Assembly: GCA_030077755.1 (NCBI GenBank)
Contig: JAQJZZ010000008.1
Span: 1-64,000, forward strand
Origin: Filosporella fistucella
Lineage: Eukaryota; Ascomycota; Leotiomycetes; Helotiales
Length of the DNA: 64,000 bases
Reading direction: 5' to 3'
Shown here one piece after another: positions 1 through 45,266 of this stretch; position 1 is the stretch's first letter, and each line of letters begins with the position of its first letter. Made by a program: the position numbers and the translations under genes. Below the pieces are notes generated by a model. That model was given only the letters and a program-made list of their open reading frames with translations. It ran no database searches and was not told where the DNA came from.

Positions 1-98
1 CTAACCCTAACCCTAACCCTAACCCTAACCCTAACCCTAACCCTAACCCTAACCCTAACCCTAACCCTAACCCTAACCCTAACCCTAACCCTAACCCT
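1..98. repeat. Telomere, (CTAACC)n
   Basis: About sixteen uninterrupted copies of the CCCTAA hexamer, C-rich strand reading 5' to 3' into the chromosome, so this is a left chromosome end. The array passes directly into protein-coding-like sequence with no spacer. The hexamer is the usual telomere unit of filamentous ascomycetes. Confidence 0.98.
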
Positions 99-1486: not shown

Positions 1487-4400
1487 GTGTTGTTTATCGT
1501 GCACTCAGACGGCACACTTCCTATCCCTTCACAATATGAGAAAGCTCTAGGTGCACGCTACTTTAGCTAATATAATTATTAAGGAAGCCGATTATTTATA
1601 ACTAGTAGACTAGATAAGGGATTAAATGCCTACTTTATAAAAGCATCTAAGCATATTACCTCATAGAGCAATAATAAGAAGAATTAAGATAATGGTTTTA
1701 ATATTTATAACGGCTATGCTAATTATAATAATCAATGTCTTACTAGCACTAGTCCCAAGGACCAAAATCACCTATTTAGCAGGCTATAAACCTATAATAG
1801 CAAGGATTTCATTCCGCTAACCGGGTGCCCGGAATTATAAAGAAGGATTATTATAAAGATTCCGAGCTATTACTAAGAGGTTAATCTTAGAGTAAGCCCC
1901 TTTATAACGAAGCTAACCACGCTTAAAAGCATTAAGCATTCAAAGTAAGAGGGTCTCTAAAGCACCTCGTGGCCGCTTTCTTTAAAAAAGGTAATTAAAC
2001 CGGAAAAACGTATGCCAATTCTTAAATGCTTAAAAATTGCGGTATAATAGAGCACTTATAGTGAGTATAATAATGCCTGCATACGCGTGATTAAATATAT
2101 AATAGCTATAATAGCTATAATTGCTTTATTTGGCCAAGGCTATTAGGTTTAATTCATTTTCAATATTTTCTCTTATATAATTCTCGAAATTAAAATTGGC
2201 CCGATTCTTAGCTAAAAACTTCTCTTTAGTAATTAAAGCAGCTATTTATTACTATCATGCACTTTAAAACTATAAAATCTTTACACGAGTGCATGCCTTG
2301 CATAAATAGGCTAAAATGCTACTATTTGCCTATATAGTGCCGTTTAGCTTTGCCTATAAATATGGTGAGATTAAAGCACTTGGTTTCTATTATTAAAAGA
2401 ATATTTGGCATAGTGATAAGATATAAATAATATAAACTAATAAGAGATCCCCGATTATTTTAGGCAAGAACCTAATATTATCTTTATAAGCCCTAAATTA
2501 CTATTAGCCTTTATAATATTAAGTATAAATTATAACCAGTTTTTCCTATATTAATAAATAGCGCTATTAAGTAATATTTCACTATATAATAAATAATAAT
2601 TCAGGTTCCTATAATGGGGGGCTAGGTGGGATATGGCATAGCATTAATACGTGCTTTAAGAAGTCCTAAGCATATAACTCGTAAATATTTATAGCTTTAG
2701 GATATAAGATTATGCTTCCGTCCTTACCCTTGGTTAAAAACATAGCCTGGAGCTTAGCGTTACTTTGAATTTGCTAAAAAAGAGCGAGTTTAGCATTATT
2801 AAAGAGTTTAGAATTATTTAGGTAAAAGAGCCACGAGCTTCTAAAGTCTTCTAAATCTAGATTATCCTTTAACCTCTAAGATTCTATTGGGACTAAGTCT
2901 TTTGCCTAGAATAAGAGCTTATTATAGAATAGGCCATAGGCGTGCTAATACTCGGAAACCATTAAGTCGGAAATCTATAATATTTGCAATTTGATTCCTT
3001 AATATTCTATTAATTATTCATTTAAGAACCACCGAGCTTGCTTTTTAATAATAGCATCTTTTTTAACTTTAAATAGGTATAGTCTCCACTATAGGATATA
3101 CCTAAATAGGGTCTCGGCTAGCTATTAAAAGAATCTCTTATAAATCTTAGCGAGAAAGATAAGTATTTGGTTTTCATCTTTTTATTCTTAGAAATAAGCA
3201 TAATTAAAGATCACTAATTAAGCAATTTAGGTTAAAGCTAATAAGTGGCTATTAAAGTTTCCCGGTTCCTTTTATAATTCCCGGTTTTTCCCGCGGACTT
3301 TTTTATTAAGTATAGCATAGAAATTTAGGATAGGTAATTTAAATAGCACGCTATTAATAATATAGCAGATTAGAGCGAAATAGAGTCGCTAAATAGCATG
3401 CTTTAAAGCTAGCTTTGCCTCTTTTTTATCCTTAATATTTAAGGCTTTTATAATTTTATCCATAGCCTAGATTTGCTAAGCAATTAGCTAAATAACGTCC
3501 CCTGAGAGTATTTATTTTGGCTAGGCTCAAATAAAATAACCGTTATTATAATATATTATTCGATAATAATATATTAATAATTGCTTTATAATAGTAAAGT
3601 ATGTAATTAATATTAATGCATTCTTAAAATACCGAAACCCATTAGCTTTATTAAATGCCCCGGCATAGAATTTATTTAAGATATTAGCCTACTATTATAT
3701 TATTTTCCGGTCCGGTAAGGTATTATTATATAACCGGTACGCATTTCTTAATATAGCCTTAATAATAATGAGAATTCAAACGAGATTAGGATCCGTAACA
3801 TTTTCACTATTTAAATCAAGCTCTTTTTTTAGTGGTAGTTTATATGAGCTCCAAATCTCCTTATCCTTTAAATTGGATATATAATATGGAAACCCGGTTA
3901 GGTTATATAATTATAGCACCCGTTTTAATCTAAAATCTCTAATATTATAAATAATATTAGCCTATTCCTCAATATTCACCTTTATATTTTTATAATCCTT
4001 CTTTAGCTTAATAAATAAGTCTTTTTTAGGCGGTAATAATGGAATGGAATTTATAAGAATCCCTCTAAATCTATCTTTTGCCTCCTCTTTAATTATTATA
4101 AAATAGTTTACCCGGCTCCGAGTTATAAAGTAGCTTTATAATAAACATTCTTCCTAAAGCAGCGTTTTTTTATAATCTTTCGCCTTCTTTCTATGGACTA
4201 TTATATAATCCCGTATACGTGGAAAATGAATAATATAGAAATCTCCGGGCTCACATAGCAAATAGTGATAGCTAGTCTAAAGCTTAAGATGTTTAATAGC
4301 TAGGCCACCACTAATAGGCTTCTTATCTTTAAGAGTATCTAAAGATCGCAAATCCAATGAATTAATATACTCTAGATAGCTCTTTAATGTCTGGCCTATG

Positions 4401-6459: not shown

Positions 6460-8031
6460 GATAGTTTCCAGACTAAAGACTGCCTGGTGAAGTTATAGAA
6501 AGCTACGATATCTGGTGTATCGAATCTTCCTGTTTGTATAGAAGACAAATTCACGAAATGTTGAAGTGTGTATGTGTAATGCCGGTATTGGATGGGGGTT
6601 ATTTTCTTAGGGGAGGAGAATGCCTTGAACTTTAGTTTGAGGTTGTTGGGATTGGGGTAGTGTACGTAAGCATTCATTAATAAGCAGAATCATGTGACGT
6701 AAGCGACTTTGTCCTTAGGTATTTTGTCTAGCGTGCATTCAGCTGACCTCAGTTGTATTGGTGCTTATCAGGAGCCGCAGCAGCTTCCAAACTCGAAACA
6801 CCAACAATCTTTTCGACAACAACCACGGTTATACGCCATAGTCTATCACGGTACCTGGTAATTGAAGATTCCATGCAGCTTACGATGAAAAGCCAAATCG
6901 CGGGAGGACATGCCAATGAGAAGCACCCCGCCTTCAATGCAAAACGTCCACCTCCAACATCGGGCAACCACCAACCACCATTCAACAAAAAAACACCTAC
7001 CCAAACTACTTCGCCCCATCCTCTCAAATCACCAACAAACAACAAACACTCATCTGCCCTTCGAACAATAGCAAGCATCCGCAGCACTAGTCCGGCCAGT
7101 ACTACCAGCCCATACCGCCACCCAACAAATCGGCCAAAAATCAAGACACCAACAAAACAACCATTTCTGCAACCCGAGATCCAAGAATCCACAAACCAAC
7201 AAAAACAGCCCCGATAAGAATCCTCGCAGGCAGGATTCAAAGGATTGCAAACATGCAACTTCCCTTGCCTACGCACAAAACAAATAATAAATATTAATAT
7301 TCGGAGGCCTTTAAGCCTATTAAATGATACCGAGTACTAAACTAATTGTAGAACAAAGAAGTATAACTCAAACTTACATATCCAAACCTTTAATTTACTA
7401 ACTGAAGTTGAATGCTAAACAATACTTACCCCAGACCTAGATCTATTAAAATCTTGGTTACAACAATTGCATGACAATTTTACATGGCATTGCATCACTA
7501 TTCCCAACCCAACCCAACCCAACCAGCTCCAGCTGATCTTCCGCGCGCCTACAAACGCATCCTTCAGACCTTCAGCCGTATTCTATGCAATCCTTCTCAA
7601 TTCTATTCCCAGAGAGCCTCTTCACCCTTCGATAGATGTTACTTCTCCTTCTTCCCCTAGCCCCCTAGGCCTTAGGAATGTACTGTTGGGTCCAATTTGA
7701 GGCCAGCAATAGTCGATCACTACCTATCGTGTACCTGCTTTGAATTACGTTTTCACCTCATTCTCGGTTGTTTCTACGAGAATAGGTAATCTTGGCTTCC
7801 TACGGCGTTGCTACTATCTTAGCCTTTACCTTAGAGCTTGAATCAAGAAGCTGCTTTGAGGGGCCTGAGTCTGTCTGATTTGTGCCCCCTTTACGCGCGA
7901 TTACATAGCCCAGATTTTCGTTCCCGGTGTGCAAAAGGAGCTTTATGTTGGTAACAATTCAAGTTGTCCTTATTTTTGGCCGCCTCTGATGTTTAGCCTG
8001 CGAATTTGCCGCTTATTATACTGCTCGGTGA
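6460..8031. other. Intergenic, with a strand-asymmetric CA-rich stretch
   Basis: No supported gene. Positions 6930-7210 are C/A-rich and G-poor on the plus strand, which opens overlapping frames on both strands; neither starts with ATG or shows a domain, so both are treated as compositional artefacts. A short (CCCAA)4 run lies at about 7504-7523. Confidence 0.5.
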
Positions 8032-8095
8032 GGGGGCTATTGCAATCATTTCCTACCTAGGTATGCGCTAATCTATTTTAATTCCGACTATTCAG

Positions 8096-10340
8096 CGAAA
8101 ATCAACACCATTAAGTCAGAACTCTGTGTCGGTGGAGCCAGAAAGAGAGCCTTGAGCTGCGGCATTGAATTTGTTGATAAGATCGCCGCCATATTCGACA
8201 TTTACGCCGGAGCGGAAGCTGCGAAATGGGCTGGTGCTGGAGGTGCACTGGTAGTTGGAGGCATGTTTGCTGCACAAGCTAAGAAAATTGCAGAGGGAGG
8301 AGGTGATATCCCATTAAACATGAATATCAACAAGGACGATTTCAATAAGGCTAAACCGGTCATCAGTAAGATCATTACCATCACGAAATCTAACACCGTG
8401 TCTATAGAGAGCTCGATAGCATCATCGACTTCGTTAGATCTTGGTGCTGGTGGTGGCAAGGATCCGCAGGAAACAGGTCTTCCTGGTGCCGATTGTTGGT
8501 TGTATACTGGAAGTACTCCGGATACGTCGAATGTTGACGATTCGGAAGATCCAGATTCTGATGATGAGGTGTCTTCTCTCAAGATTCGACGACTTGCTGG
8601 ACGTATCACCTACGATCCGTCATTACTCGATAGCAGAGAGACCCCCACCGACATCTCAAGCAATCCAGGTAAGAAGATGCAAACTTCACAGTCCATCTAT
8701 TAGTTCTAGTAGCAATGTCCCAAACCAAGCTTTCCCCAATCAGACCTTCACTAACCCTCCATTTCTCCGTAGCGGATCTCGCAAAACGAGCCTTAGAAAA
8801 TCTCGGAAACTGTCCACAAACTTTCCCCGCCAACTTTAAGGCTTCTTTTATGCCCGGTGTTAAAGGTATTGCCAAGATCCCTAAGGATTTATGGTGGTGG
8901 GTTCCTCTACCACAAACAGATGCAGCAGGTCTCTATACCATCAGCACTTTATAAAAGGTTCCTAATGACCAAGTGGGAGGTACACCGCCTGTACCTATCG
9001 GATATGTTTAAGATCCGAATGCGGCGGGTAAGAAAGTCAGCGTTGATCATATTTGTGAGTGCCCTTTTTTCCATCCATTTCAATGTCTTATGTACGAGGA
9101 GAGCGTTTTGGACAACTGGGAATCCATGATTTGTTCGACTTATGAATCCTTATGGACCTTCTCATCTTTTCGTCGAGATCTGCTAGCAAGTAGTTATATG
9201 AAGGCTACAATGTCTCTTCCTCGTTTCTCGAATGTAGCACATTGAGAGATGTAGAAAGGCTACCATTGTCTTTCTCTCATTCATCGACTATAGCACATTG
9301 AGATGCCACAAGGTAACCGTCTATACAGATGAAAAATCCTTCCTTAAGGATTTCTTCCTCTCCGTCTTCAAAGACGCAAACGATCCACGATGTCAACCAT
9401 TTTTCGATCTAATGCTCCAGAATTCAAAATATGTGAATCCAACATATCCAGGCAAAGATAAGGGTTCTCGCATGCAGGTAAGGCTTATTAGGGAGCAAAA
9501 AGCTTCCCAATCCATCCAGTGCCGCTCTTAAAACATATTTTACTAGCAAATACTCCTATTCGTCCCTTCATGCAATTGCTAACTCACCATTCTTCCGTAG
9601 CTTCTATTCAATCTTTAACCAAACGTGCAAAACGGAGCTTTCCTCGGACTCGAAAGAAATATCAACTCCGTTAAAGGAAGTCTTATGAATCCTGGGTTGG
9701 TTGGTATTCAAGCTGTTAATGAGAGAAAAGAACTCGATGCAACGGATAAGAATTTGAATTTATTAAATGACATGTAAGTCTTCCTAGCCTTTTCAAATAG
9801 CAAAGCTTATACATTATAGCGCTATGGCTTGGTCTATTCTTAAGATTCCGGCGGCAGCAGAGAAAATGAAGACAATCAACAACAATATCTATAGAGCCTT
9901 ATAAGTCACCTCACCTCCATCTCGCCTCTCAAATCTAATCCATCAACAGCATAGCAATCGACAAGTTAGAATCCTGCGCCCCTATCAAAGGAGGTGGCAA
10001 TGGACCTAACGCCCAAACATGGGCATCAGCCTACCAAGATTGGATCAGTGCCTTCTTTAGAGACAGACAAGCTGAAACCATCGCCTATGTGACGAAAATC
10101 AAACAAACCATCGAAGCCACCCCAATGACATTAACCGAAGCAGGCGGACAGGAGAAGAACAAATTCGGACGCGCTTTCGACGCTATCAATGCTGCTTTCC
10201 CTAATGAACACTGGGTACTCGATATAGCTTCGCTACTAGACTTTTTAGGCGACGCAATCGAGACGATTCAAAAACGAGATAGTTCTATTATTGGATGTCC
10301 CGGTTGTGATAACCTCTTAAAATTATATAAAAAACCATAA
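8096..10340 (+). pseudogene. Broken multi-exon gene, family not identified
   Basis: Several coding-like exons with good splice sites: 8096-8668 (possibly preceded by an intron ending TTCAG), intron 8669-8772, exon 8773 to 9054, exon about 9300-9477, exon from 9601, intron about 9775-9818, and a last part ending 10340. The first exon has a hydrophobic glycine/alanine segment (about 8205-8280) and acidic linkers; later exons are rich in Asn, Asp and Lys. In-frame TAA codons occur at 8952, 9009 and 9616; the last two sit where CAA (Gln) would fit. The track-like start at 8152 is TTG, so no ATG supports it. It resembles non-catalytic tails of large secreted fungal proteins only loosely, and no function is assigned. 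Confidence 0.55.
9199..9303. repeat. Two-copy tandem repeat of about 50 bp
   Basis: Two diverged head-to-tail copies, about 9199-9247 and 9253-9303. Both begin GAAGGCTAC or GAAAGGCTAC, contain a TCTCxxTC block and end TAGCACATTGAGA. The array lies between two coding-like exons of the broken gene, probably in an intron. Confidence 0.75.
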
Positions 10341-10429
10341 TTAAATTAGGTTATAAAATAAGGGATTATATAATAGGATTAAGGGTTTTAAGGGGTTTAA
10401 GGAAATTAGGCCTTAATTTACTTAAATTA

Positions 10430-10610
10430 TCTTAAGCTAAATAAACTTATTAAAAATAAAGGTTTTATATAAGATTAGCACTTTCATTATTAAATAAGAT
10501 TCTTTATATTTAATAATATTATAATTAAAACGTTTATATAATATATTTATCCCTTACCTAAAATTATTATATAAGCACCGGCCTATATAGCAACTATTAT
10601 AAAAGGCTCT
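10430..10610 (+). repeat. Dispersed repeat R2, heavily mutated copy
   Basis: Matches 11040-11230 in the same orientation. Aligned words include TTTTATATAAGATTAGCACTT against TTTTATATAAGACTAGCACTT, ATTCTTTATATTTAATAAT against ATTCTTTATACTTAGTAAT, and AAGCACCGGCCTATATAGCAA against GAGCATCGGCCCGTATAGCAA. Nearly all differences are C to T or G to A in this copy, the direction expected from RIP. It may be a long terminal repeat remnant. Confidence 0.75.
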
Positions 10611-11039
10611 TTATTAAGCTTTTAACTATTAATAATTCTTTTAAAGAATTTTAAAATAAAAGGTAAAGAGCTAAGAGCATAATTATATAAAAATATAATA
10701 AAACTTACGGGTTTTAAATATATTATTAAATATAAGCTAATAAGGAAAATAAGAAGAAGGTAATTAATATAAGAAAAAAACGATTATAGGCGCTATATTA
10801 TAAAGCTTAAAGCAATTTGACTTAAGTATATTTTTCCTTATATAATAACCTCTTATATTTTAGCAAATTATTACGGTCACAGGCTCATCACGAGAGCAGG
10901 ACAAAGAATTCGCCGTCTCTTAATAGTTTTAAGAACCGCGTGGGGAAGTCACGGGAAAAGGTCACGTGATGGATCCCCGGATCCCTATAAGCGAGATAGC
11001 GAAGGGGAATTCACGGATCCAGCCCTAAGGAATCCTAGG

Positions 11040-11230
11040 ATCTAATTAAGAACGAGGATTTTATATAAGACTAGCACTTCTGCCATTAGATAGGAGCTTC
11101 GTGCTCAACTTTAAATAGTATTCTTTATACTTAGTAATATTATAACTAGAATGTCTTCGTGATATACCTATCCCTTACCCAGAACCATTATACGAGCATC
11201 GGCCCGTATAGCAACCGTTATACAAATTTA
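11040..11230 (+). repeat. Dispersed repeat R2, better preserved copy
   Basis: Second copy of the repeat at 10430-10610, about 600 bp downstream in direct orientation. It carries roughly 25 extra bases (GGAGCTTCGTGCTCAACTTT region) absent from the other copy. The direct orientation and TATATAA plus CCTATCCC words would fit LTRs, but no primer-binding site or internal coding region remains. Confidence 0.7.
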
Positions 11231-11781
11231 GCCTTTGCTAGCCGGTATTAATATAGTTTTACGTATGTTAATTAGTTTTCCTATATAAATTTCGCATATT
11301 GCTAGCGTTTCGCGCATTACTTACTCTCACCCAATACTAGGACTAGTAGTGGGTATAAGGGTGCTAGCCGAACGATTATTGCTTTTTATTTAGTCCTTGC
11401 GGTCTGATTTTGCAGGGATTTCCGCGGGGACTTTAGGAAAGGGACGGTGCTAGGTTTTAACAATTGAATACAAAATCGCATAGCTTTCCAATCTTGATTG
11501 CACATGTGATTTGAAGCTGTTACTTAATTATAACAAGTAAGAAGCTAGAGGCTATGATCAGCTTCGCCGATTACACCATTACATATTCCTCTATGGACTA
11601 GACGTAGTGGCGTAATGCAATTTCGCTACATTTAATATGGTAGAGGCGTTGTAGTACCACCGCCTCCCCCTCTGCCTTGCCATTCCAAAGGTGACGATCG
11701 CTGGGACTTTGTGATATCCTCATGAATTTGAAGGTTCTTGGTGAAAAGGAGGAGTCAGCGGCGCCTTGGGTTTTCGTTTAA

Positions 11782-12615
11782 TATCACAAGAAAGCCGAGC
11801 CGAGGGTCAGGTTCTTCACCCAGCCGGCAATCAAGTCAAACTTCCAGCCGTCGCAGCCCAGTCAATCCTCTCCTCATTTCGACATTTACATATGCCCATT
11901 TCCCACGACGCGAAATTGCAGAACCAACATATCTTCAAAACTACCCCCAGGGGGCGGTGAAAATCGAAATATGATTGACCCAGCGGAGGTGTACATAGAT
12001 GGGCATGAGCCAACCCAGGGGTTGCTGTGCGGCAGAGAAGTAGAAGTCTAGAGACATGGTGGCAATTGCACAGCGACTGTGAGAGGGTTGATAAAGGTTG
12101 TGAGCCATGGTGGAGATTCTGTACTATGTGCAATGACCGCGGGGCATTTTCTTTCGCAGGTGGAATATGAGGAGATCGAGGATGAGGAGGCAGAACTGAG
12201 TGATGACTTTGACGTCACCTTTCCAGAGGATGGAGATAGGTTCGAGCTTGACATTGGTTTACCCGATGAAGTCTTGCAGATAGAAGATAGTCTCGAAAAT
12301 GGTACCCCTAAGACGAACGAGGCGGTATTAGCATCAAGCTCTTTCGCGCCGCTCAAGCTCAGGCACGTATACAAAGCATCTCATGATAATGTCGGAAATG
12401 GGCCAAACCTTCACTGGGCCCTCATCACGATCGATAATAAGTCGCTCTCCTTGCCAAACATCATCAAAAAGCACCCAATCGCAAGTCCTCAGCCAGCGAT
12501 GTCGACTGTGCAACGCACGGTAATCATAGCAACATCTATTGACCAAATCCACAACGGAACTTTGTCCCTCTCTTGGTCGTATCTTATGCTGGCTCCTAGT
12601 CAAACTTCGTCGTGA
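11782..12615 (+). pseudogene. Trypsin-like serine protease relic
   Basis: One frame is open from 11782 to the TGA at 12613-12615 apart from a TAG at 12049-12051. A TAGH motif at about 12135-12146 (within LCAMTAGHFL) is the catalytic-histidine signature of chymotrypsin-fold proteases, followed by an acidic loop and HWALITID near 12415, where such proteases carry the catalytic Asp. A serine motif of the GDSG type is not found in frame; sequence past 12615 continues coding-like only in other frames, so the C-terminus is frameshifted or lost. It lies tail to tail with the NLR gene, whose own last domain is a protease, 200 bp away. Protease family assignment is probable; inactivation is well supported. 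Confidence 0.6.
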
Positions 12616-12811: not shown

Positions 12812-15800
12812 TTAAACAGAGGGAGGAAACCGCGAGCTGGGTTCGTCTGGCTTGTCGATAGTTGGTTCTTCATCGTTAACCTCAAATATCTCTCTCCCTT
12901 GGGACGTTCCAGTCCGCTCCCTTGCATTAATTCTCAAGACCTGTGCATCGCGGCCATTGTTCAACACGCGAATAAATTTCTTCAAATTTGTATCTTGAGA
13001 TTGATTGTTACTTAGCAGTTTCCATGGAACCACGTAGGCGTAGCCGCCTCTGCTCGAAGACATGTAGCTGAAAAGTGATCGGATCCCCTCGGGGCTTGAA
13101 ACGGCAGATAGCTCAGGGGAATCGAGAGGCAAGTTCTGTCTCGCGTATTCGAGCACATTCGCTGCAATGGCAGCAGCAATTGGAGTTGCAAACGATGTAC
13201 CGGATTTGCGCGCTGTTGGTCCCTGACCGAGATGTTTAGGCCAGGCTGACTTAACGGCTTCTCCCAGAATACTAAAGTTATCGCTGCCATGTATCGGACC
13301 TGGATTGAAAGAAGAACTATTCCCATAGCCATCTGCAGAGCTTATGCCAATTACGTGTCTTGAAGAGGCAGGAAAGGCAACACCGGTTTGGATGGATCGA
13401 TGGGAGGTAGCTGCGAACATGATGATCCCCTTATAATGCGCCTTTTGAATTGCTTCTTGTATCGCCGGCTCGGCTCTCTCAAAGCCAAATGACATAGAGA
13501 TGATATCGACACCACGATCGATTGCAAACTTTATAGCCTAGCAGACCGTCAGCACGGGTACATCATCTGGGAAAATGCATCTTCAATTCACCTCCAATAC
13601 CTTGCGAGAATGCACCTCCGTGCCAACGTCACCAGAACTTCTAGTCACCTTTGCAACATAGATCTCAGCCATGGGAGCTATTTTAAGCAATAAGCTAACC
13701 ACATGGGTACCATGACCTTGTGTGTCAGAGAAATCCGAAGAGAGATTCCCAGAAATTGACTTGATCACACCAGCTTCCTTTCCAGCTAACAATTCATCGT
13801 TGGTTATGTCAACGCCAGTGTCAAGGACAGCAATTCTGACCCTTTTGTAACCCGTATTAGCTTTTAATAGGGGCATCGTTTCCCTTTGGAGAGTCTCAAG
13901 CCAGCGGTCGGCAAGTGAGGACAAGGATCTAGAAATATTTAGCAGGCATCGCGTTCAAATTGAATGGCCACGTACCTGTTCTTTGCGGGTTCGTACGAGT
14001 CACTCTTACCAACGTACTCATCTTCCTCTAGCAAAATATGTGGTGTACTTGATACCAGACGCTCCATACCGATGATCCCGATGGTGGGCAAATGATCTTC
14101 AAATTTACCAGATTGAGCTTCGCAACTGAGAATGTATTGCTCTTCTTGGTCTCCTTCTCGTGAAAAACTGCCATGCAATAAGGGGTTGCTGGACGGAGAT
14201 TTCCCTGGCATAGTGCGAGGCCGTAGATTACGAGGCGGGCGCGAAAAGGCATTTTCGTCATCCTCTTCATCCTCTTTATCTTCATCATCCTCATCACCCC
14301 CTTCATCCTCGTCATCCTCGTCGGCACTTGAAGCAGCACTCGACCCTGCTACTGGGAGCTGATCACGAAGCTGCTGCAACCCAGTTTCCTGCAAAAACGT
14401 TCGCACAGTGTGATGGATAAATAGTGCGAGGGATGAGCCGCTGCCTCCTGGTGCGTCATAAAATCGAGCTTCTATAAGACCACCCGAATAGCTTCCGACA
14501 TAGTCCCCTAATCTATGTATTTCATTGTTCTGTTGTTCAGAATTATCCGTTGATATAGAGAATGGCCAGGTGAACCGGACATCAGTAGCAATTTGGGCCA
14601 GATACATAGGATCCGTGGCCTTTGCTGCCCAAGACAGTATGGAGTAGGCATCCCCCCGATCTGCTGGCTGAATGATATTGTTGAGCATGTCTGTATAGAT
14701 CTCTCCAAGTCGAGGAGGGGCAAAATCCAATCTAGACATGACTTTCTGTACTGGGTCGCCTTTATTCAGCCTGTCAACCACGATCGGGATGACTAATGCC
14801 ACCCAGAGAAAGACACCAGCTGATTTTTCTACGATCTGCTTTCTTAGGTCTGATAAAGTTCCATCAGATTCCAGGGTTCCTCTTCTGCGGATATTGCGAG
14901 TTTTGAATTCATCTTCAACATAAACGGTGATGTCGGTTAAGTTTTCTTTCTCGAGGACAATTGTATGCTTTTCAGGAACCGGCGGGAGTGGGAAATGCCT
15001 GCTTGAGACGCAGACCCGCACATTCTTTCCAACACGTCGAAGTCTGTTATCGAGGTCGAAAAGATATCTCCCGATCTCCTCCACATGCGCTTTGCCTTGA
15101 ACATCTTCGTCTATTGCATCGACTAGGATTCTAATATTCACGGTGGCTGTGTCCAGGTTTTCCAGTTCAGTATTGAGGAATTTTCTAATTTGATTCTGAT
15201 CCTCATCGCGCCACTCGATCACGTGGCCAAGGCGTACAAGTTTTGTCCTTTCATAGAAGCGCTGAAATCTGAAGGCTGCTGACGGAACCTGTTCGAGAAG
15301 TTGAACGAGGAGAACCCTATACATACCTGCGGCAGAATTCTTCAATGGTTTGTTGGGGTCTCCAAATGCGTTGAAGAAGTATATCAACACAATTGAACGA
15401 CTGGACTTCTGGAGCTCGAAATGATCAACTAGTGTTTTCATGGTCGTTGACTTGCCAGCCCCTGGTTTACCTTTAATCCATAGTATTCCTTGAGGATCAT
15501 TGTGCCATGCAACATACGCAGGATGTTTGAATATCCATGTGCCAGTCTTTGAATGCGTTCTGTCATCAAGGTCCAATATTTTGTCGTACATTTCTGGGAA
15601 CTTGAGAGAACTAAGTGATGGAGCGATGGGTAATTGCTCTATGTACATGAGCTTGTGTTCATTGAAATCAACAAAAGGTGACTATTAACCTTGCGCCACA
15701 GAATTACTGGGCAGAATCTCTGTCCACTCCTTCAATACTCCTAGAATGAGTCCATAATTGCCATTTCGTTCAGGAAATCGGCACATGCTCGTATGGTTGC

Positions 15801-16984
15801 ATCCTTGCATATCAAATACCTGCTCTCCGACCACATGCATGACCGCACTATGCCGGTCTACAATCTACCCCAGATCAGCAAAAATATCGTTTATCATGGC
15901 ACTTGGAATATGTTACTCTTTCCTTCGCAGGTGGTTGGGCTTCCATCTCGACGAATGTTGCTATTTTTATGGATGCTGTCTGTTCTACAAACTTGCCAGA
16001 TATTGAGTCGAGAATCGGGGCCTCGCGCTCGAGGTTTTTGATCAATTCCGTTCTAGCTCTCCCGAACAGCCTTGACGTCCCAACTGTTGCGATATTGACT
16101 ATGTTTGTGAGCAATTTTGGGAAGCCGACTGCTTTTGAGCCACGGTGAGGTGTTCCGAGGAAGATGATACCAAGACAAGACTGCCGGATATTCTCGAACG
16201 TAGCGCCTTTGACAAGAGTGGTGATGATTGCCTACATCGTGGTCAGGTAAGATGGTGAAAATCAGTGGCAAGTACTTACCTCTTTAACAATGATACCACC
16301 CATGCTATGACATATGAAGATGATTGGTCGAGATTTGGTTGCCTTTTGATGTTAGGTCTTGTGCTTTACGAGCTGATGCCGTAATTTTACCTGTGATGTC
16401 CGGGTCTGCTTTAAATGTCCCAGCAGAGTTCCGGCAAATTCCTCAAAGCCTCCTGTAGCTAAGCTGAAGAAGACACCGGCGTCATATCCATAAGAGAAGA
16501 TACGAGCTCCTGGCAGGTCATCGTTGAGAAAATCGCGCAGCCACAGCTTGTTATTGCCGTGCGTCCAAGTATTGTACGCGTCTCCGGTAATGCCATGCAA
16601 TGCTACTATATCAATTGGATAACTTTCAATGTCTCGAGCAGCAGCATGATCTCGTTCCAACGTGCCAAGGCCTTGTGCGTTCAAATTTATTGGGAATAAC
16701 CCATACTTATCATTTCCACGCTCAGGAGCTGAAGCAACAGGAGCAGGTTGAGTAAATTGAATAGGTGGAGGAGCAGGTGCTTCTGGCAAACCGGAATCTA
16801 CTGCTGGCTCAGAAAGTGTGATTGGAACTCCTGCTGCTTGAGAAGATACAGCTGGTTGTACCGAGACAGCTGTGTTCTCGAGAAGACTTGAGCTTGTGGT
16901 CGTTGTAGAATCTGGTCCGGTAGCCTTATCTTTGCCTAATCCCGATCTGCGAAATCTGCGAAGGATTGGCTTCAGAAATCCCAT
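12812..16984 (-). CDS. SesB-type hydrolase - NACHT - subtilisin-like protease, NLR-like protein
   Basis: Seven exons (16984-16391, 16342-16280, 16231-15917, 15864-15690, 15638-13976, 13928-13601, 13537-12812) join in one frame of about 1287 residues; all six introns are 47-63 nt GT-AG. Residues 1-13 (MGFLKPILRRFRR) could be N-myristoylated. Residues about 115-380 form a SesB/DUF676 alpha/beta hydrolase: IVALHGI, nucleophile motif CHSMGG (Ser about 211), FLGTPHRGS, and a late His in GCNHTSMC. The NACHT domain has Walker A GKPGAGKST (about 439-447), Walker B LVDAIDE (about 554) and SSRHFP (about 594). An Asp/Glu-rich linker (about 820-845) precedes an S8 domain with Asp in AVLDTGVD (about 973), His in GHGTHV (about 1009) and Ser in GTSFATP (about 1161). 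STAND proteins of this kind act in fungal self/non-self recognition and cell death. ANK, TPR or WD repeats are absent. Confidence 0.88.
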
Positions 16985-17690
16985 TCTGGCTTTTTTTCAT
17001 TCGAGGAGTTGCGGTTGTAGGACCGAGAAAGTCTCGCATGCATGTGGGCTTATGCTGTCAAGAAACCCAGACACCGTTTGGAACCACGAAGAAATAGCTG
17101 TCGTACTTCATCGTGTTGGGGGCATCCATGCCTTAATAGTTCACTCCATGGTGCGCAGCCTGATTGCAGCATGACCTGGTGGCTTGGGGCTGGAAAATCC
17201 CATCTCACCGCGTCCAATGAATGAAACTCAGCAGACGCTTACTGTCTTGTTCTGTCACACCAAGGTGACAGGACCTGCTTCAATTCGAACCGCGATGTGC
17301 AAGGCATCCAATCCAGGAAAGGAAGAGATCGAGGCATTAAAGATGAGATGTAAGTCCGTAGACTCGAAGTCGAAAATAAAAGGATGTATTTGGGCTATTC
17401 TGTGGGAGCCCAAACCCTAGAGAAACTAGGTCGTTAAAAACGCTCATAAGCCCTAAAGGGACTAGCTTAACTTGTGCCAAATCCGGTAAATGATTGGTCC
17501 GATATCTAGCTTTGTCAACATTTAAGATGTTGGTGAGGTTGGATGTAGGGACATGTTGATTGTATGCTTGATGTTGTGTGGAACACTATATCTGTGTATA
17601 TGGAACTTGGGAAGATGTAGTGAGGTCAGGGTCTCATATTGGGCTATGGAGATTGTAGCGATTTATGTGGAAGTGCACAGAGAATGAGAA
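16985..17690. other. Intergenic upstream of the NLR gene
   Basis: The promoter side of the NLR gene. No protein gene is supported; the short frames here lack ATG-proximal domains or homologous-looking composition. GTTGG/GATG-rich words occur at 17510-17650 without clear repeat structure. Confidence 0.5.
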
Positions 17691-17906: not shown

Positions 17907-17978
17907 AGATATAATTTCCGGTAAGAGTATAATAATAAGAATATAATTTTCTATTATTATAAGTTATATTAGTTTTAT

Positions 17979-18135
17979 TAACCAAAATAATAAGGGTAAT
18001 ATTTGAAAGAAGAAGAAGGATTATATTATTAAGTTATCCTTGAGCTATACTATATATAAAGTGAGCACCGGAGCGGAAAAATTATCTACCGGTAAAACAC
18101 GTGACTTAAAATCACGAGGCTTCAACCCCACTATA
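17979..18135 (+). repeat. Dispersed repeat R1, internal copy
   Basis: Inverted copy of 1330-1486. A segment near 18100-18117 folds as CGTGA-CTTAAAA-TCACG, a perfect five-base anticodon stem with a seven-base loop whose central triplet TAA would be a Leu anticodon, and TTCAACC downstream looks like a T-loop. Acceptor and T stems do not pair properly. This copy has more A/T than its partner at most differing sites. It lies less than 100 bp upstream of a GNAT gene that carries a nonsense mutation. Confidence 0.85.
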
Positions 18136-18232
18136 CTATCACGATATTATGGTTTTGGAATTTTCATCTAGCACACTTTTTAATTATTTTAAAAGCACAA
18201 AGCAACGCGTGAATATCGTTTGCATAAAGCCC

Positions 18233-18979
18233 ATGCCTATTATAGTCCGCAAGGCGACTTTAGCCGATCTTGATGTTATCCTTGAAATCAGGCTCGCGTC
18301 AATCCAAGGAGGAGAGCAGTGGCAGTATCGTTACCCATACTACAATGAATTCCCTAAAGATCATGCTACCCTCTCGAGACGCCGAATAGAAACATATCTA
18401 AAGGACGAAACTGGAGCTTCCGGTTACGTGATGCTTGCTGAAGCTTCTTGCGAGAACGTTATGGTTCCAGTGGCGTGGGCTGTGTGGATGATGCCAAACT
18501 CTTATGATAAGACACCACCAGCTATAGGGTTGAAAGCTCCAGGTTAGATTGCTTTCGCTATTGACTTCTTGTGGGAAAAATTGAATGCAGTAGCTGAAAG
18601 ATGTTTGGTAGAGATCGAGGAACAATTCGCCCGACGTGACACGAATCCAGCACATGTCAAAGCTTTCAAAAGGGCTTGTAAAGGCGCGAGGAAAGAATTC
18701 TTCTATTCAAAATACGGCAATAAGCAATTGTTTCTTCACAATATAGGCACACGGCCGGAGTACCGGCGGTGTGGAGCAGCATCGGCGTTGATACAGTGGG
18801 GTCTGAATTTTGCAGAGCAATATGAATTTCCAGTGACGCTATTGGCAAATCCTGTTGCAGTTTCGTTGTACGAAAAATTGGGTTTCAATTCTCTTTCTCG
18901 CGTCAAAGTTCAAGTCGATGGCGAGTTGGAGATACTTTCCATCATTCCAATGATTAAGGAGTTTAAAACCTTAAGTTGA
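18233..18979 (+). pseudogene. GNAT-family N-acetyltransferase with one internal TAG
   Basis: The frame from ATG 18233 to the stop at 18977-18979 would give about 248 residues if a TAG at 18545-18547 were a sense codon. The same frame resumes immediately with IAFAIDFLWEKL, so there is no intron and a CAG to TAG change is the simplest reading. The first part has the GNAT start pattern (MPIIVRKATLADLDVILEI). The second part has the acetyl-CoA-binding motif A (GTRPEYRRCGAASALIQWG) and the closing motif NPVAVSLYEKLGF. GNAT enzymes move an acetyl group from acetyl-CoA to amines; the substrate is unknown. The ATG at 18149 is possible but adds 28 unmatched residues. Damage may have leaked from the adjacent repeat. 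Confidence 0.8.
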
Positions 18980-19246
18980 GAGTGCATTCAATATCAAAGT
19001 TTAGATCATACTATAATCAATAGCATTATATGCTACAATTTCATTTGCAGAAAAGATGGCGCAAAGACTCCACCAAGTGAATTACAGCTTCATAATGCTC
19101 AATCAAAATCTGAAATCTGAATTTACTCTGTGTTTCTATATTAATTATCTGATTATCTCTCACAGTTCGTCTATAGCCAAGAAAACAATGCACCGAATGC
19201 AGATATCAAATGCGACCTTAACGCCAACTCTATCCTGTCTCCAGGA

Positions 19247-42348: not shown

Positions 42349-43013
42349 CTGGACATGAAAAGAACGTTGTAGCAACATCAATATTTGCTAGAGCAGCACT
42401 CCGTCTGGTTTGACTTCAACCATTGAATCGGATCATGGTTAACTTTGCGAGAAACCTGCACAAAAGATACAAGTAATAGTATGATTATTTTTTCTTTAGT
42501 TTGCTCTTGGTGTGCCACCAGAGGCTGTGTTTTACAAGACACATAACCGATGTATCGTGGCGCACCCGATTGACTATTGCTCTCTTGTTCAAGTTGTGCT
42601 GCAAATCGCTAATAATATAGTCAGGTATTCTCATCACCATGTCTCTAATCGTGTTATGGTATTCCCTTGCTACTTGTTTCCAGAAGCTTGGGGTTCTCGG
42701 GCTCAGTGGATCCTGCGCGTCGTCAACCACTGCGACGCGCATACTAGAGATAATACGCTCCTCTCTTGTCAGACCTTCAGGCACTGATGAACATGTTACT
42801 TGGCTTCTACCCTTGGCCTGACAATCAATCGTTCGTCCCGAATGTACTCAACTCTACGATTGGTACCCAAGCTAAATCTCCGTGCATGGGTGCGTTGGCA
42901 GTGGGAGGCGACGTGTCTAGCATGAACGTGTCTTGCATGTACTATTTTGTACATTTTGTGTCAAGCCTTTGCGTCGATTATTCTCGTGTTTTTACATCGT
43001 TCATGTAAGGAAA
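42349..43013. other. Intergenic
   Basis: Open frames on both strands at 42485-42821 overlap and have no domain. Nothing is supported. Confidence 0.45.
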
Positions 43014-45266
43014 ATGGGAGTGATCAACAAATCCTCGAGGGGTTCCATTCATAATTTCTGGGCTGGTGTTCTGGGCGAGACCTGTAGCTGTCCCACTTGC
43101 AACCGAATCTGGCAACATGACACGGAATTTCAACAAAATCGGCCGTCAACATCGCAGAATGGAGCTGCCACTCAAACGCGATATAGGATAGCTAAAGATG
43201 TTGCAAGACCAAAATTTGGAGAGGTACATTCGAGCGGAAAAGCAGGTTGTCAGGTATGCTGGTTGATCTGGTCTGGCGTGTTTATGTCAAACCCCAATAT
43301 TCACAAAGAAGCGGTGCTCCGAGGTGAGCTTCTCCAACCAAGAAGCGATTTCTCCTTCGTACGGTTGATAACTGGGGAGGGATATGGATCTCGGATTAAT
43401 GATGGCATTGATTTTATGCTGCAACCTTGGTCGCGTAAGTGCTTCTTGTCTTCTGCCACATATCGGCACGTACTTACAACTCTAGGTTTCACACCCACCA
43501 GCGATGACGAACCAGCTACAATTCTTGAGCCCGAGTCTTCGGAGTGGCTCAATCGAATAGAGTCCTGGATATCTGTCTGCGAGACTCATCAAGACTGTCT
43601 ACCAGATGGAGCTAGTGTCCTCCCAAGCAGGATCATACAGGTCGATTTGAACGATGGCAGTATGGATATCCGCCTGGAAGAGCACACCAACAAGAAAGCA
43701 GCGTATATTGCATTGAGCCATTGTTGGGGTGGCCGTGAGCCCATCAAAACAATATCCACAAACTTGGGAGATCACAAGCAGAGAATATCGTGGTCATCAC
43801 TACCGAAAAGCTTTCAAAATGCGATCTCGATTGCGCGTGGAATTCAGGTTCAATACATATGGATTGATGCGCTTTGCATTGTACAAGACGATCGAGTTGA
43901 CTGGGCGGCTGAAGCGGCGAATGTTGGCACATATTTCCGTCAGGCATGGCTGACAGTCTCCGCAACTTCATCACCTGATAGTTTTCATGGCTTGTATCCA
44001 GAAAGTGTCAAAGATCATGTTATCCCAGGACACAGCTCTCGCAAAACGGTATTTGTTCGTAAGCTTCCCTCGCACTTCGAGCTCGGGAAGGTTGCCAAAC
44101 CTGGAGCTTCTAATCAACTGCCTATATTTGAACGGGCTTGGACCTTTCAGGAAAGGCTATTATCCCGAAGAATCTTGCATCTCGGTCCAGAGGAGATGGT
44201 ATGGGAATGCCGATCTACTTCCTGGTGTGAGTGCATGAATCCGATCGCACAGAAGCTGCACCATCATGAAGAGCTTCCTTCATCCGTCTCTCGACAATTT
44301 CAAAATCTCAACTCACACCAGCCCAACCACGCTTACCAACAATGGTGCAACTTACTATCTTTATATCTTCGACGGGATATCACACATCACAGTGATAGAC
44401 TTCCTGCAATTGAGGGTCTTGCAAAACAATTTTGGCGACAGCATCAGCGATCTCTTGGTCGATACTGTCTGGGCATATGGTCCAACCATCTTCCTCAATC
44501 ACTTTACTGGAAATACAATGGATTCGCAAAAGATCGAAGTTCTTCGGTACCCAGCTGGTCCTGGGCATCTGTTGATTGCTCAGGCTCCTTGGAATTTGTC
44601 AGCGATATTGACTCTCCCCCAGAGAAATCATTTTGGAAGGATACCTGCAAAGTATTTACCTGCCCTCCTCAGACTTGGGACCTCTCGACACGATCTAAGT
44701 CTGGAGACTTGGACATGATTCTTGTCGGCCCTGTTTCCGATGCTAAGTTCGGATTTCTCACGATAGACGCCAGGTCGCAAACCGGAAGATGGTGTCCAGT
44801 CCTGATAGATCCAAAAGCCTACATGGACAATACCGATCTGGGACATAATTCATCGGATGGCAAACCTCCATTTTCCAGATCTCCCCCGGAAGCCGTAGTC
44901 TTCTTCCCTGATCTTGAGTCTGTGGATGGTGTCTCTCCGGGTGATACTGTTTTCTGTTTGCAGATTGCACGGGCTGCAAAAGAGGGAGAAGACTATGAGG
45001 TCAGGCGACCTCACGATGATGAAGACGCATGGGAAGATTGTGATGAGGAGGAAGAGGATGATCGTGGACTTGGTTCTATTTCCGAAGGATTTGTTGAGGA
45101 TTTTTCTCGGGATCAAGAAACCCACAAGGAGGAAGCCCGATTTCTGATCTTGAAGCTTTCCACTAAAGATGATGGCTCATATTCCCGCATCGGGGTCATG
45201 ACGTGCGACCTGGTGGGAAGACCCTGGCTTGTTAGTGGCAAGAAGAAAGCAGTGAGGATCTCCTAG
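43014..45266 (+). CDS. HET-domain (heterokaryon incompatibility) protein
   Basis: Intronless frame of 750 residues from ATG 43014 (777 if an upstream ATG is used). The HET domain is clear: YIALSHCWGGREPIKT, then LPKSFQNAISIARGIQVQYI, WIDALCIVQDDRVDW and FRQAWLTVSATSS. An N-terminal Cys-rich segment (CSCPTCNRIW, GCQVCWLIW) and the later FERAWTFQERLLSRR complete the usual pattern. HET proteins trigger cell death after non-self recognition in filamentous fungi. The C-terminal region has an acidic stretch (about residues 670-690). Allelic variability is common in the family and cannot be judged here. Confidence 0.92.
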   Translation: MGVINKSSRGSIHNFWAGVLGETCSCPTCNRIWQHDTEFQQNRPSTSQNGAATQTRYRIAKDVARPKFGEVHSSGKAGCQVCWLIWSGVFMSNPNIHKEAVLRGELLQPRSDFSFVRLITGEGYGSRINDGIDFMLQPWSRKCFLSSATYRHVLTTLGFTPTSDDEPATILEPESSEWLNRIESWISVCETHQDCLPDGASVLPSRIIQVDLNDGSMDIRLEEHTNKKAAYIALSHCWGGREPIKTISTNLGDHKQRISWSSLPKSFQNAISIARGIQVQYIWIDALCIVQDDRVDWAAEAANVGTYFRQAWLTVSATSSPDSFHGLYPESVKDHVIPGHSSRKTVFVRKLPSHFELGKVAKPGASNQLPIFERAWTFQERLLSRRILHLGPEEMVWECRSTSWCECMNPIAQKLHHHEELPSSVSRQFQNLNSHQPNHAYQQWCNLLSLYLRRDITHHSDRLPAIEGLAKQFWRQHQRSLGRYCLGIWSNHLPQSLYWKYNGFAKDRSSSVPSWSWASVDCSGSLEFVSDIDSPPEKSFWKDTCKVFTCPPQTWDLSTRSKSGDLDMILVGPVSDAKFGFLTIDARSQTGRWCPVLIDPKAYMDNTDLGHNSSDGKPPFSRSPPEAVVFFPDLESVDGVSPGDTVFCLQIARAAKEGEDYEVRRPHDDEDAWEDCDEEEEDDRGLGSISEGFVEDFSRDQETHKEEARFLILKLSTKDDGSYSRIGVMTCDLVGRPWLVSGKKKAVRIS

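Follow-up and report, generated by a model that had tools for sequence, protein, structure and literature searches.

Near one chromosome end of the fungus Filosporella fistucella (Ascomycota, Leotiomycetes, Helotiales), we found a gene predicted to encode a protein related to the NLRs (nucleotide-binding oligomerization domain-like receptors), in which a SesB-type hydrolase, a NACHT domain, and a subtilisin-like protease domain of family S8 follow one another in a single chain. The gene lies in the first 64,000 nucleotides of contig JAQJZZ010000008.1 of assembly GCA_030077755.1 (hereafter, the window). To judge from its sequence, the S8 domain behind the NACHT domain is probably a folded, catalytically weak domain. 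The reading that we favor, tentatively and with somewhat less than even confidence, is that this domain would act as a sensor, an integrated decoy of the proteases that activate gasdermins, and would trigger the SesB effector.

Gene model and domain layout

The gene occupies positions 16984-12812 on the minus strand, and its seven exons, spliced from the sequence, form one frame of 1290 codons followed by a stop codon (Table 1). All six introns have GT..AG ends and are 47-54 nt in size. An earlier note on this DNA had described seven exons joining without a frame break into about 1287 residues, with SesB and a subtilase flanking one NACHT domain and a protease in the place of the sensor repeats. 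These points were borne out, the domain order by Pfam matches, by SesB homology, and by the same order in two Apiospora proteins (P0001 and P0002, see below). In the Pfam scan, the window protein matched NPHP3_N, a NACHT-type NTPase family, at residues 414-596 (E = 6.6e-26) and Peptidase_S8 at residues 965-1184 (E = 4.5e-23). The match of the SesB part to DUF676 (E = 5.8e-4, 19.9 bits) fell slightly below the curated cut-off of 20.3 bits, and the SesB identity therefore rests better on homology, this domain being 52% identical over 265 residues to each of the two Apiospora proteins. A profile seeded from the window protein itself scored 343 bits over residues 115-380.

The motifs of the first two domains are well preserved. 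In the SesB domain, S211, which lies in a nucleophile motif of the GHSxGG-like type, and H348 are conserved in 98% and 99%, respectively, of 163 SesB rows. The NACHT domain has a Walker A motif at approximately residues 439-447 and a Walker B motif at D556/E560, and residues G439, G442, G444, K445, S446, D556, D559, and E560 all match conserved columns. Among the columns conserved in >85% of rows, the window protein matched 28 of 28 in SesB and 20 of 22 in NACHT.

In the same Pfam scan, ANK, TPR, and WD families were absent from the matches listed, which extended to E = 1. The S8 domain begins after an acidic linker, behind the helical region that closes the NACHT part at around residue 800, where relatives carry ankyrin repeats. 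Because canonical membership asks for C-terminal ANK, TPR, WD40, or HEAT repeats and the C-terminus is of another kind here, we class the protein as NLR-like rather than among the canonical tripartite NLRs. Within the same genome, the closest relative with SesB-NACHT (L042, C1:873992-876464 plus the following open reading frame, ORF) belongs to the SesB-NACHT-ankyrin NLRs of the Ascomycota. It shares the hydrolase, the NACHT domain, their order, and their motifs with the window protein (identity is 50% for a portion of SesB and 32% across the NACHT region), but has an ankyrin array behind NACHT, whereas the window protein has S8 there. Long ankyrin ORFs were observed in L042 (C1:870001-880000) and in another such relative, L043 (C2:450001-460000), which also contains a weak second NACHT-like stretch on the opposite strand (2773-2417) with an in-frame stop.

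Related fused proteins

Three protein searches were made, from which the best 120 of 230, the best 120 of 258, and 21 of 21 significant matches were listed; only the 7,984-7,991 candidates with the largest number of shared words were scored per search, so that more fused proteins are possible. Among the matches listed, S8 stood behind NACHT in three other proteins. P0001 (Apiospora saccharicola) and P0002 (Apiospora sp. TS-2023a) are single predicted proteins with the order SesB-NACHT-S8, and P0128, from metagenome data, is an 849-residue NACHT-S8 protein that lacks the SesB front part. The earlier note had proposed searching databases for this order and had held that homologs always encoded as two separate genes would speak against a single protein; all three homologs are single proteins. 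The reverse order, with S8 before NACHT, occurred in six other listed matches, for which WD40 families were also listed. Other S8 fusions among the matches listed, according to their Pfam families, combined S8 with patatin (P0179 and P0213) or with ankyrin (P0217).

In a tree of NACHT and the region following it (the best-scoring 110 of 142 rows), the window protein, P0001, P0002, and P0128 formed one clade with a Shimodaira-Hasegawa-like approximate likelihood ratio support of 100. On this sequence evidence, the SesB-NACHT-S8 fusion is old and real, because the four fused proteins form one NACHT clade. A tree of 125 S8 domains placed all four on one side of a branch with a support of 94, just under the starred level of 95, and a single fusion event appears to be the simplest reading. 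The structure of P0128 was predicted with a mean pLDDT (predicted local distance difference test) of 35.7 without an alignment and 79.8 with a 52-row alignment. The latter model has a predicted subtilisin fold, and the stretch corresponding to the acidic linker is below a pLDDT of 50.

The active site of the S8 domain

The catalytic triad (Asp973, His1009, and Ser1164) is kept in the window S8 domain, and D, H, and S are present in all four fused proteins, although the Ser motif of P0002 is degraded. The picture differs at the asparagine of the oxyanion hole, which corresponds to Asn155 of subtilisin and whose role is described in PMC11593635 (papers are cited here, by their PMC numbers, from excerpts). 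When the four fused proteins were left out of the profile, all 122 background rows had this Asn (119 database proteins and three genes from the same genome), whereas the window protein has His1095, which aligns with the Asn of bacterial subtilisins from PDB. With a profile that included the window protein, Asn was found in 118 of 124 rows, and the remaining six were His in the window protein, Ser in P0128, and gaps in P0001, P0002, and one fragment each of P0132 and P0239, the other fragment of each carrying Asn. A Fisher test of 0/4 against 122/122 gives 1e-7, a value that is descriptive only, as the four proteins share ancestry and the count follows the favored reading of P0002.

In the window protein, the changes are concentrated around this position. 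Across 28 columns conserved in at least 95% of the background, the window protein showed three departures (T1093, H1095, and S1097), P0128 four, and P0001 and P0002 eight each, compared with a background mean of 0.63 (95th percentile 2, 99th percentile 5.4, maximum 11). The three departures of the window protein and the four of P0128 all fall within the oxyanion loop, which is several residues shorter in P0001 and P0002.

Pace of change across domains

The three domains have not changed at the same pace among the other fused proteins. P0001 and P0002 are 86% identical in SesB, 76% in NACHT, and 56% in S8; the identities of NACHT and S8 are 67% and 47% between P0001 and P0128, and 64% and 43% between P0002 and P0128. 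Thus, S8 is approximately 20 points below NACHT in likeness. In control NLRs with S8 in front, S8 was more alike than NACHT in seven of ten pairs, equal in one, and lower by 2-3 points in two. The ranking of effector, switch, and sensor by divergence would then appear to be that of a typical NLR, and is clear in these three pairs but not in those that include the window protein.

S8 genes beside gasdermins, and other known systems

The genome contains three other S8 genes of this clade, on C3 (near 508 kb), at the right end of C7 (4.58 Mb), and at the left end of C16 (18 kb). Their neighborhoods have one gene family in common. The family members on C3 and C7 are similar to RCD-1 gasdermin-like proteins of solved structure (E = 4.3e-6 and 7.3e-6, respectively), and the C16 member was recognized by its match to these two. 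Two of the three S8/gasdermin pairs lie <50 kb from a telomere. The S8 genes in all three pairs have an intact oxyanion loop (FAAASN), and S8 is preceded by TPR in one of them and by DUF7580 in another. In two six-frame searches of the genome, gasdermin genes were detected at these three places and no others, a count that is a lower bound; the gasdermin profile finds single exons of the C16 gene, one of the genes from which it was built. In the 64 kb window, the profile of the three gasdermin genes, searched against six-frame ORFs of at least 25 amino acids, found no gasdermin, yielding three matches with E values of 4.1-8.6. Approximately 80% of fungal gasdermin genes are located near protease genes (within approximately 10 kb), mostly of family S8, and the protease HET-Q2 cleaves the gasdermin HET-Q1 (PMC10197012, PMC10989679, PMC12881547).

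The window S8 domain resembles the HET-Q2-like proteases in being an intracellular S8, and is 40-47% identical, in the longest matches, to the gasdermin-paired S8 proteins of C3 and the C7 right end. It differs from the HET-Q2-like proteases in that no gasdermin was found beside its gene, its oxyanion loop is altered, and it is fused behind SesB-NACHT. The six S8-NACHT-WD40 NLRs (P0135, P0147, P0152, P0166, P0189, and P0198) also combine an S8 domain of the same clade with NACHT in one protein, but there S8 stands in front as the effector, WD40 stands behind, the oxyanion Asn is kept, and the NACHT domain is weakly similar to that of the window protein (approximately 50 bits). The general statement of the earlier note that fungal NLRs pair one effector with repeats consequently needs a qualifier, as NLRs with S8 before NACHT and NLRs with two effectors in front (PMC10197012) are known. 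A further parallel is provided by the putative integrated-decoy NLRs of the Sordariales, which carry a CHK2-like kinase at the C-terminus (PMC12258605). As in the window protein, a domain related to a host enzyme family is located C-terminally in a T-NACHT-type NLR; the window protein differs in that the domain is a protease, not a kinase, replaces the repeats instead of being added to them, and shows a loss of a catalytic feature that the fused proteins share.

A possible integrated decoy

From their families, SesB is likely the effector and NACHT the switch, and a sensor role of S8 is likely in view of its position, its pace of change, and its dulled active site. An integrated decoy is an added domain that has a homolog among the other proteins of the host, and three other S8 genes of the clade are present in the same genome; as to loss of the activity of the host enzyme, which is not strictly required of a decoy, the oxyanion loop is altered here but the triad is kept. 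This combination fits a decoy because a decoy must retain the shape of the site bound by a blocker or substrate. We propose that gasdermin in this fungus would be armed through cleavage by HET-Q2-type S8 proteases. If an invader or another non-self factor bound these proteases or blocked them, it would bind the weak S8 domain of the receptor as well; alternatively, the ligand may be a gasdermin tail, the substrate of such proteases. Binding would allow the NACHT domain, with ATP, to oligomerize, and the SesB domains brought together in this way would attack lipid, so that the cell is killed or walled off. The S8 copy would keep the shape of the active site without the turnover that could itself set off death. 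It is possible, although we put this more cautiously still, that S8 is a pseudoprotease bait for saboteurs of gasdermin arming, such that blocking the gasdermin route would set off the SesB lipase route. To our knowledge, it would be the first time that a fungal NLR is seen to carry an integrated decoy of the protease type. In the excerpts of PMC4986451, PMC12258605, PMC9815663, PMC10197012, PMC12881547, PMC10989679, PMC5658179, and PMC5485727, S8 is either the N-terminal domain of an NLR or a protease on its own and does not follow NACHT, and neither a protease-type NLR decoy nor a tie of such a decoy to gasdermins was met in the literature searched, again in excerpt. The idea of an integrated decoy is itself already known from the C-terminal kinase in the Sordariales (PMC12258605), from which a protease version differs.

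Several observations weigh against this reading. The six introns of the gene model are predicted from the sequence. In the MAFFT alignment, P0001 (FASSNLAW) and P0002 are gapped at the oxyanion position and have an Asn one place off, the loop of P0002 can be aligned in two ways, and P0002 was scored as having Asn at this position in the profile alignment built without the fused proteins. We judge the last of these to be a probable misplacement onto the preceding helix (LEAASNNG), because the strand FTSAGSNW follows that helix. The four losses stem from one fusion and are not independent, and one background S8 protein shows 11 departures. The kept triad in all four proteins could mean kept catalysis, and the role of the missing Asn in the oxyanion hole might be taken over by His or a different residue. 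In the pairs that include the window protein, the values for S8 versus NACHT are 49 versus 45, 36 versus 44, and 45 versus 48, so that S8 shows little or no sign of diverging faster. Finally, that a gasdermin-activating protease would be the decoyed target is suggested by kinship.

The main alternative, in line with the suggestion of the earlier note that one activation event could drive both a lipase/esterase and a protease, is that NACHT activation turns on SesB together with an active S8, whose substrates would be other proteins or a gasdermin with its gene elsewhere. The triad kept in all four proteins speaks for it and leaves some protease activity possible, as do the predicted subtilisin fold of P0128, the existence of NLRs with N-terminal S8, the action of S8 proteases on gasdermins, and the two-effector NLRs described in PMC10197012. 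We nevertheless do not favor this alternative and consider it doubtful: the oxyanion Asn and neighboring loop residues are changed in all four proteins against an unbroken background, the loop is shortened in Apiospora, S8 diverges faster among the other three proteins, and the three gasdermins detected adjoin other S8 genes, with none found in the window. The altered loop likewise sets back the idea of S8 as an ordinary active protease. A slow S8 domain that cuts its own chain once, for example in the 136-residue acidic linker, and thereby primes or releases SesB-NACHT, would have a parallel in the self-cleaving receptors NLRP1 and CARD8. A triad with a weakened oxyanion hole would suit one turnover better than many, and a long disordered linker lies between NACHT and S8; however, no cleavage site or FIIND-like domain was found, the linker is not conserved and aligns poorly, and the Apiospora loop deletion should hurt even a single turnover, making such a switch improbable.

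Decay of the S8 domain, drifting without function in a subtelomeric gene exposed to repeat-induced point mutation (RIP), would be in keeping with the position of the gene 13 kb from the telomere between RIP-like bins and with P0002, which is changed throughout S8, the Ser motif included. We regard it as unlikely in the window protein, in which the frame is open over all 1290 codons with six canonical introns, the bins of the gene itself are not RIP-like, and the departures are confined to one loop and not scattered, and the fusion persists in three other sources. Least probable, by a wide measure, is that intron 5 is false and joins neighboring SesB-NACHT and S8 genes. The gene model was drawn from sequence, and homologs show nothing that clearly corresponds to linker residues 804-936, but the ends of intron 5 are GT..AG, exon 6 can be aligned right from its start, and P0001, P0002, and P0128 each carry both parts in one protein. 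We rejected such a two-gene artefact on the strength of these single-protein fusions.

Setting at the chromosome end

The window is the left end of the 4.63 Mb contig C7 of a 45.8 Mb genome assembled in 19 contigs, and it starts at a chromosome end, because telomere repeats occupy its first 98 positions. TTAGGG repeats were also found at the other end of C7, which thus runs from telomere to telomere. RIP-like AT-rich 2-kb bins were located at 2001-4000 (GC 0.29, TpA/ApT 1.19) and 10001-12000 (GC 0.37, TpA/ApT 1.10), whereas TpA/ApT in the bins of the NLR-like gene was 0.56-0.77. The view of the earlier note that an intact gene stands among broken ones holds for the gene; for its neighbors, the two RIP-like bins are a partial check.

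An ORF at 42921-45263 on the plus strand encodes a HET domain (E = 2.9e-25), and is a second candidate allorecognition gene near the chromosome end. Another plus-strand ORF (12052-12612, 187 codons) is located just downstream of the NLR-like gene on the opposite strand and may be a gene remnant. No Pfam match was obtained for the ORFs at 8032-8700, 9939-10337, and 12052-12612, and no tRNA or Rfam family was found in the window.

Table 1. Features of the NLR-like gene, of the chromosome ends, and of the S8/gasdermin gene pairs
Feature	Location	Strand	Description
Exon 1	16391..16984	-	Residues 1-198; Pro/Ser/Thr-rich leader, start of SesB-type hydrolase (SesB profile match, residues 115-380)
Exon 2	16280..16342	-	Residues 199-219; nucleophile motif HSMGG, Ser211 at 16306-16304
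Exon 3	15917..16231	-	Residues 220-324; SesB; Glu314 (98% conserved), putative candidate catalytic acid
Exon 4	15690..15864	-	Residues 325-383; end of SesB; candidate catalytic His348 at 15795-15793
Exon 5	13976..15638	-	Residues 383-937; NACHT 389-619, helical region to ~803, acidic linker from ~804
Exon 6	13592..13928	-	Residues 937-1049; first part of S8; triad Asp973 (13822-13820) and His1009 (13714-13712)
Exon 7	12812..13537	-	Residues 1050-1290 and stop; remainder of S8, Ser1164 (13195-13193), altered oxyanion loop, tail
Acidic linker	13922..14376	-	Residues 804-939 (136 residues), 26% Asp+Glu, predicted disordered; spans intron 5 (13975-13929)
Altered oxyanion loop	13394..13411	-	Residues 1092-1097 (A-T-S-H-R-S); His1095 (13402-13400) at the oxyanion Asn position
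Telomere repeat (CTAACC) x16	1..98	+	Tandem repeat; uninterrupted run of 96 bases
Further telomere repeats (L057, L058, L059)	C7 right end, C16 left end, C3 left end		
S8 gene, C3 (L039)	508155-509087	+	Intact oxyanion loop (FAAASN)
Gasdermin gene, C3 (L039)	509238-510116	-	Shared neighbor family, RCD-1 similarity
Gasdermin gene, C7 right end (L040)	4576067-4576915	-	Shared neighbor family, RCD-1 similarity
S8 gene, C7 right end (L040)	4579716-4580665	+	Intact oxyanion loop (FAAASN)
Gasdermin gene pieces, C16 left end (L041)	~16249-17464	-	Shared neighbor family
S8 gene, C16 left end (L041)	17919-18992	-	Intact oxyanion loop (FAAASN)

Implications

The repeats of fungal NLRs carry no clue to the ligand, and little is therefore known of what these receptors detect. 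A recognizable relative of an enzyme in the sensor slot suggests a candidate ligand, namely a binder of gasdermin-activating S8 proteases. An effector protease may have become a sensor by relocation behind NACHT and dulling of its active site. If the decoy reading is true, the protein would guard a pathway of the fungus that resembles pyroptosis, cell death through gasdermins would be linked with cell death through NLRs, and the guard/decoy model would become testable in yeast or Podospora.

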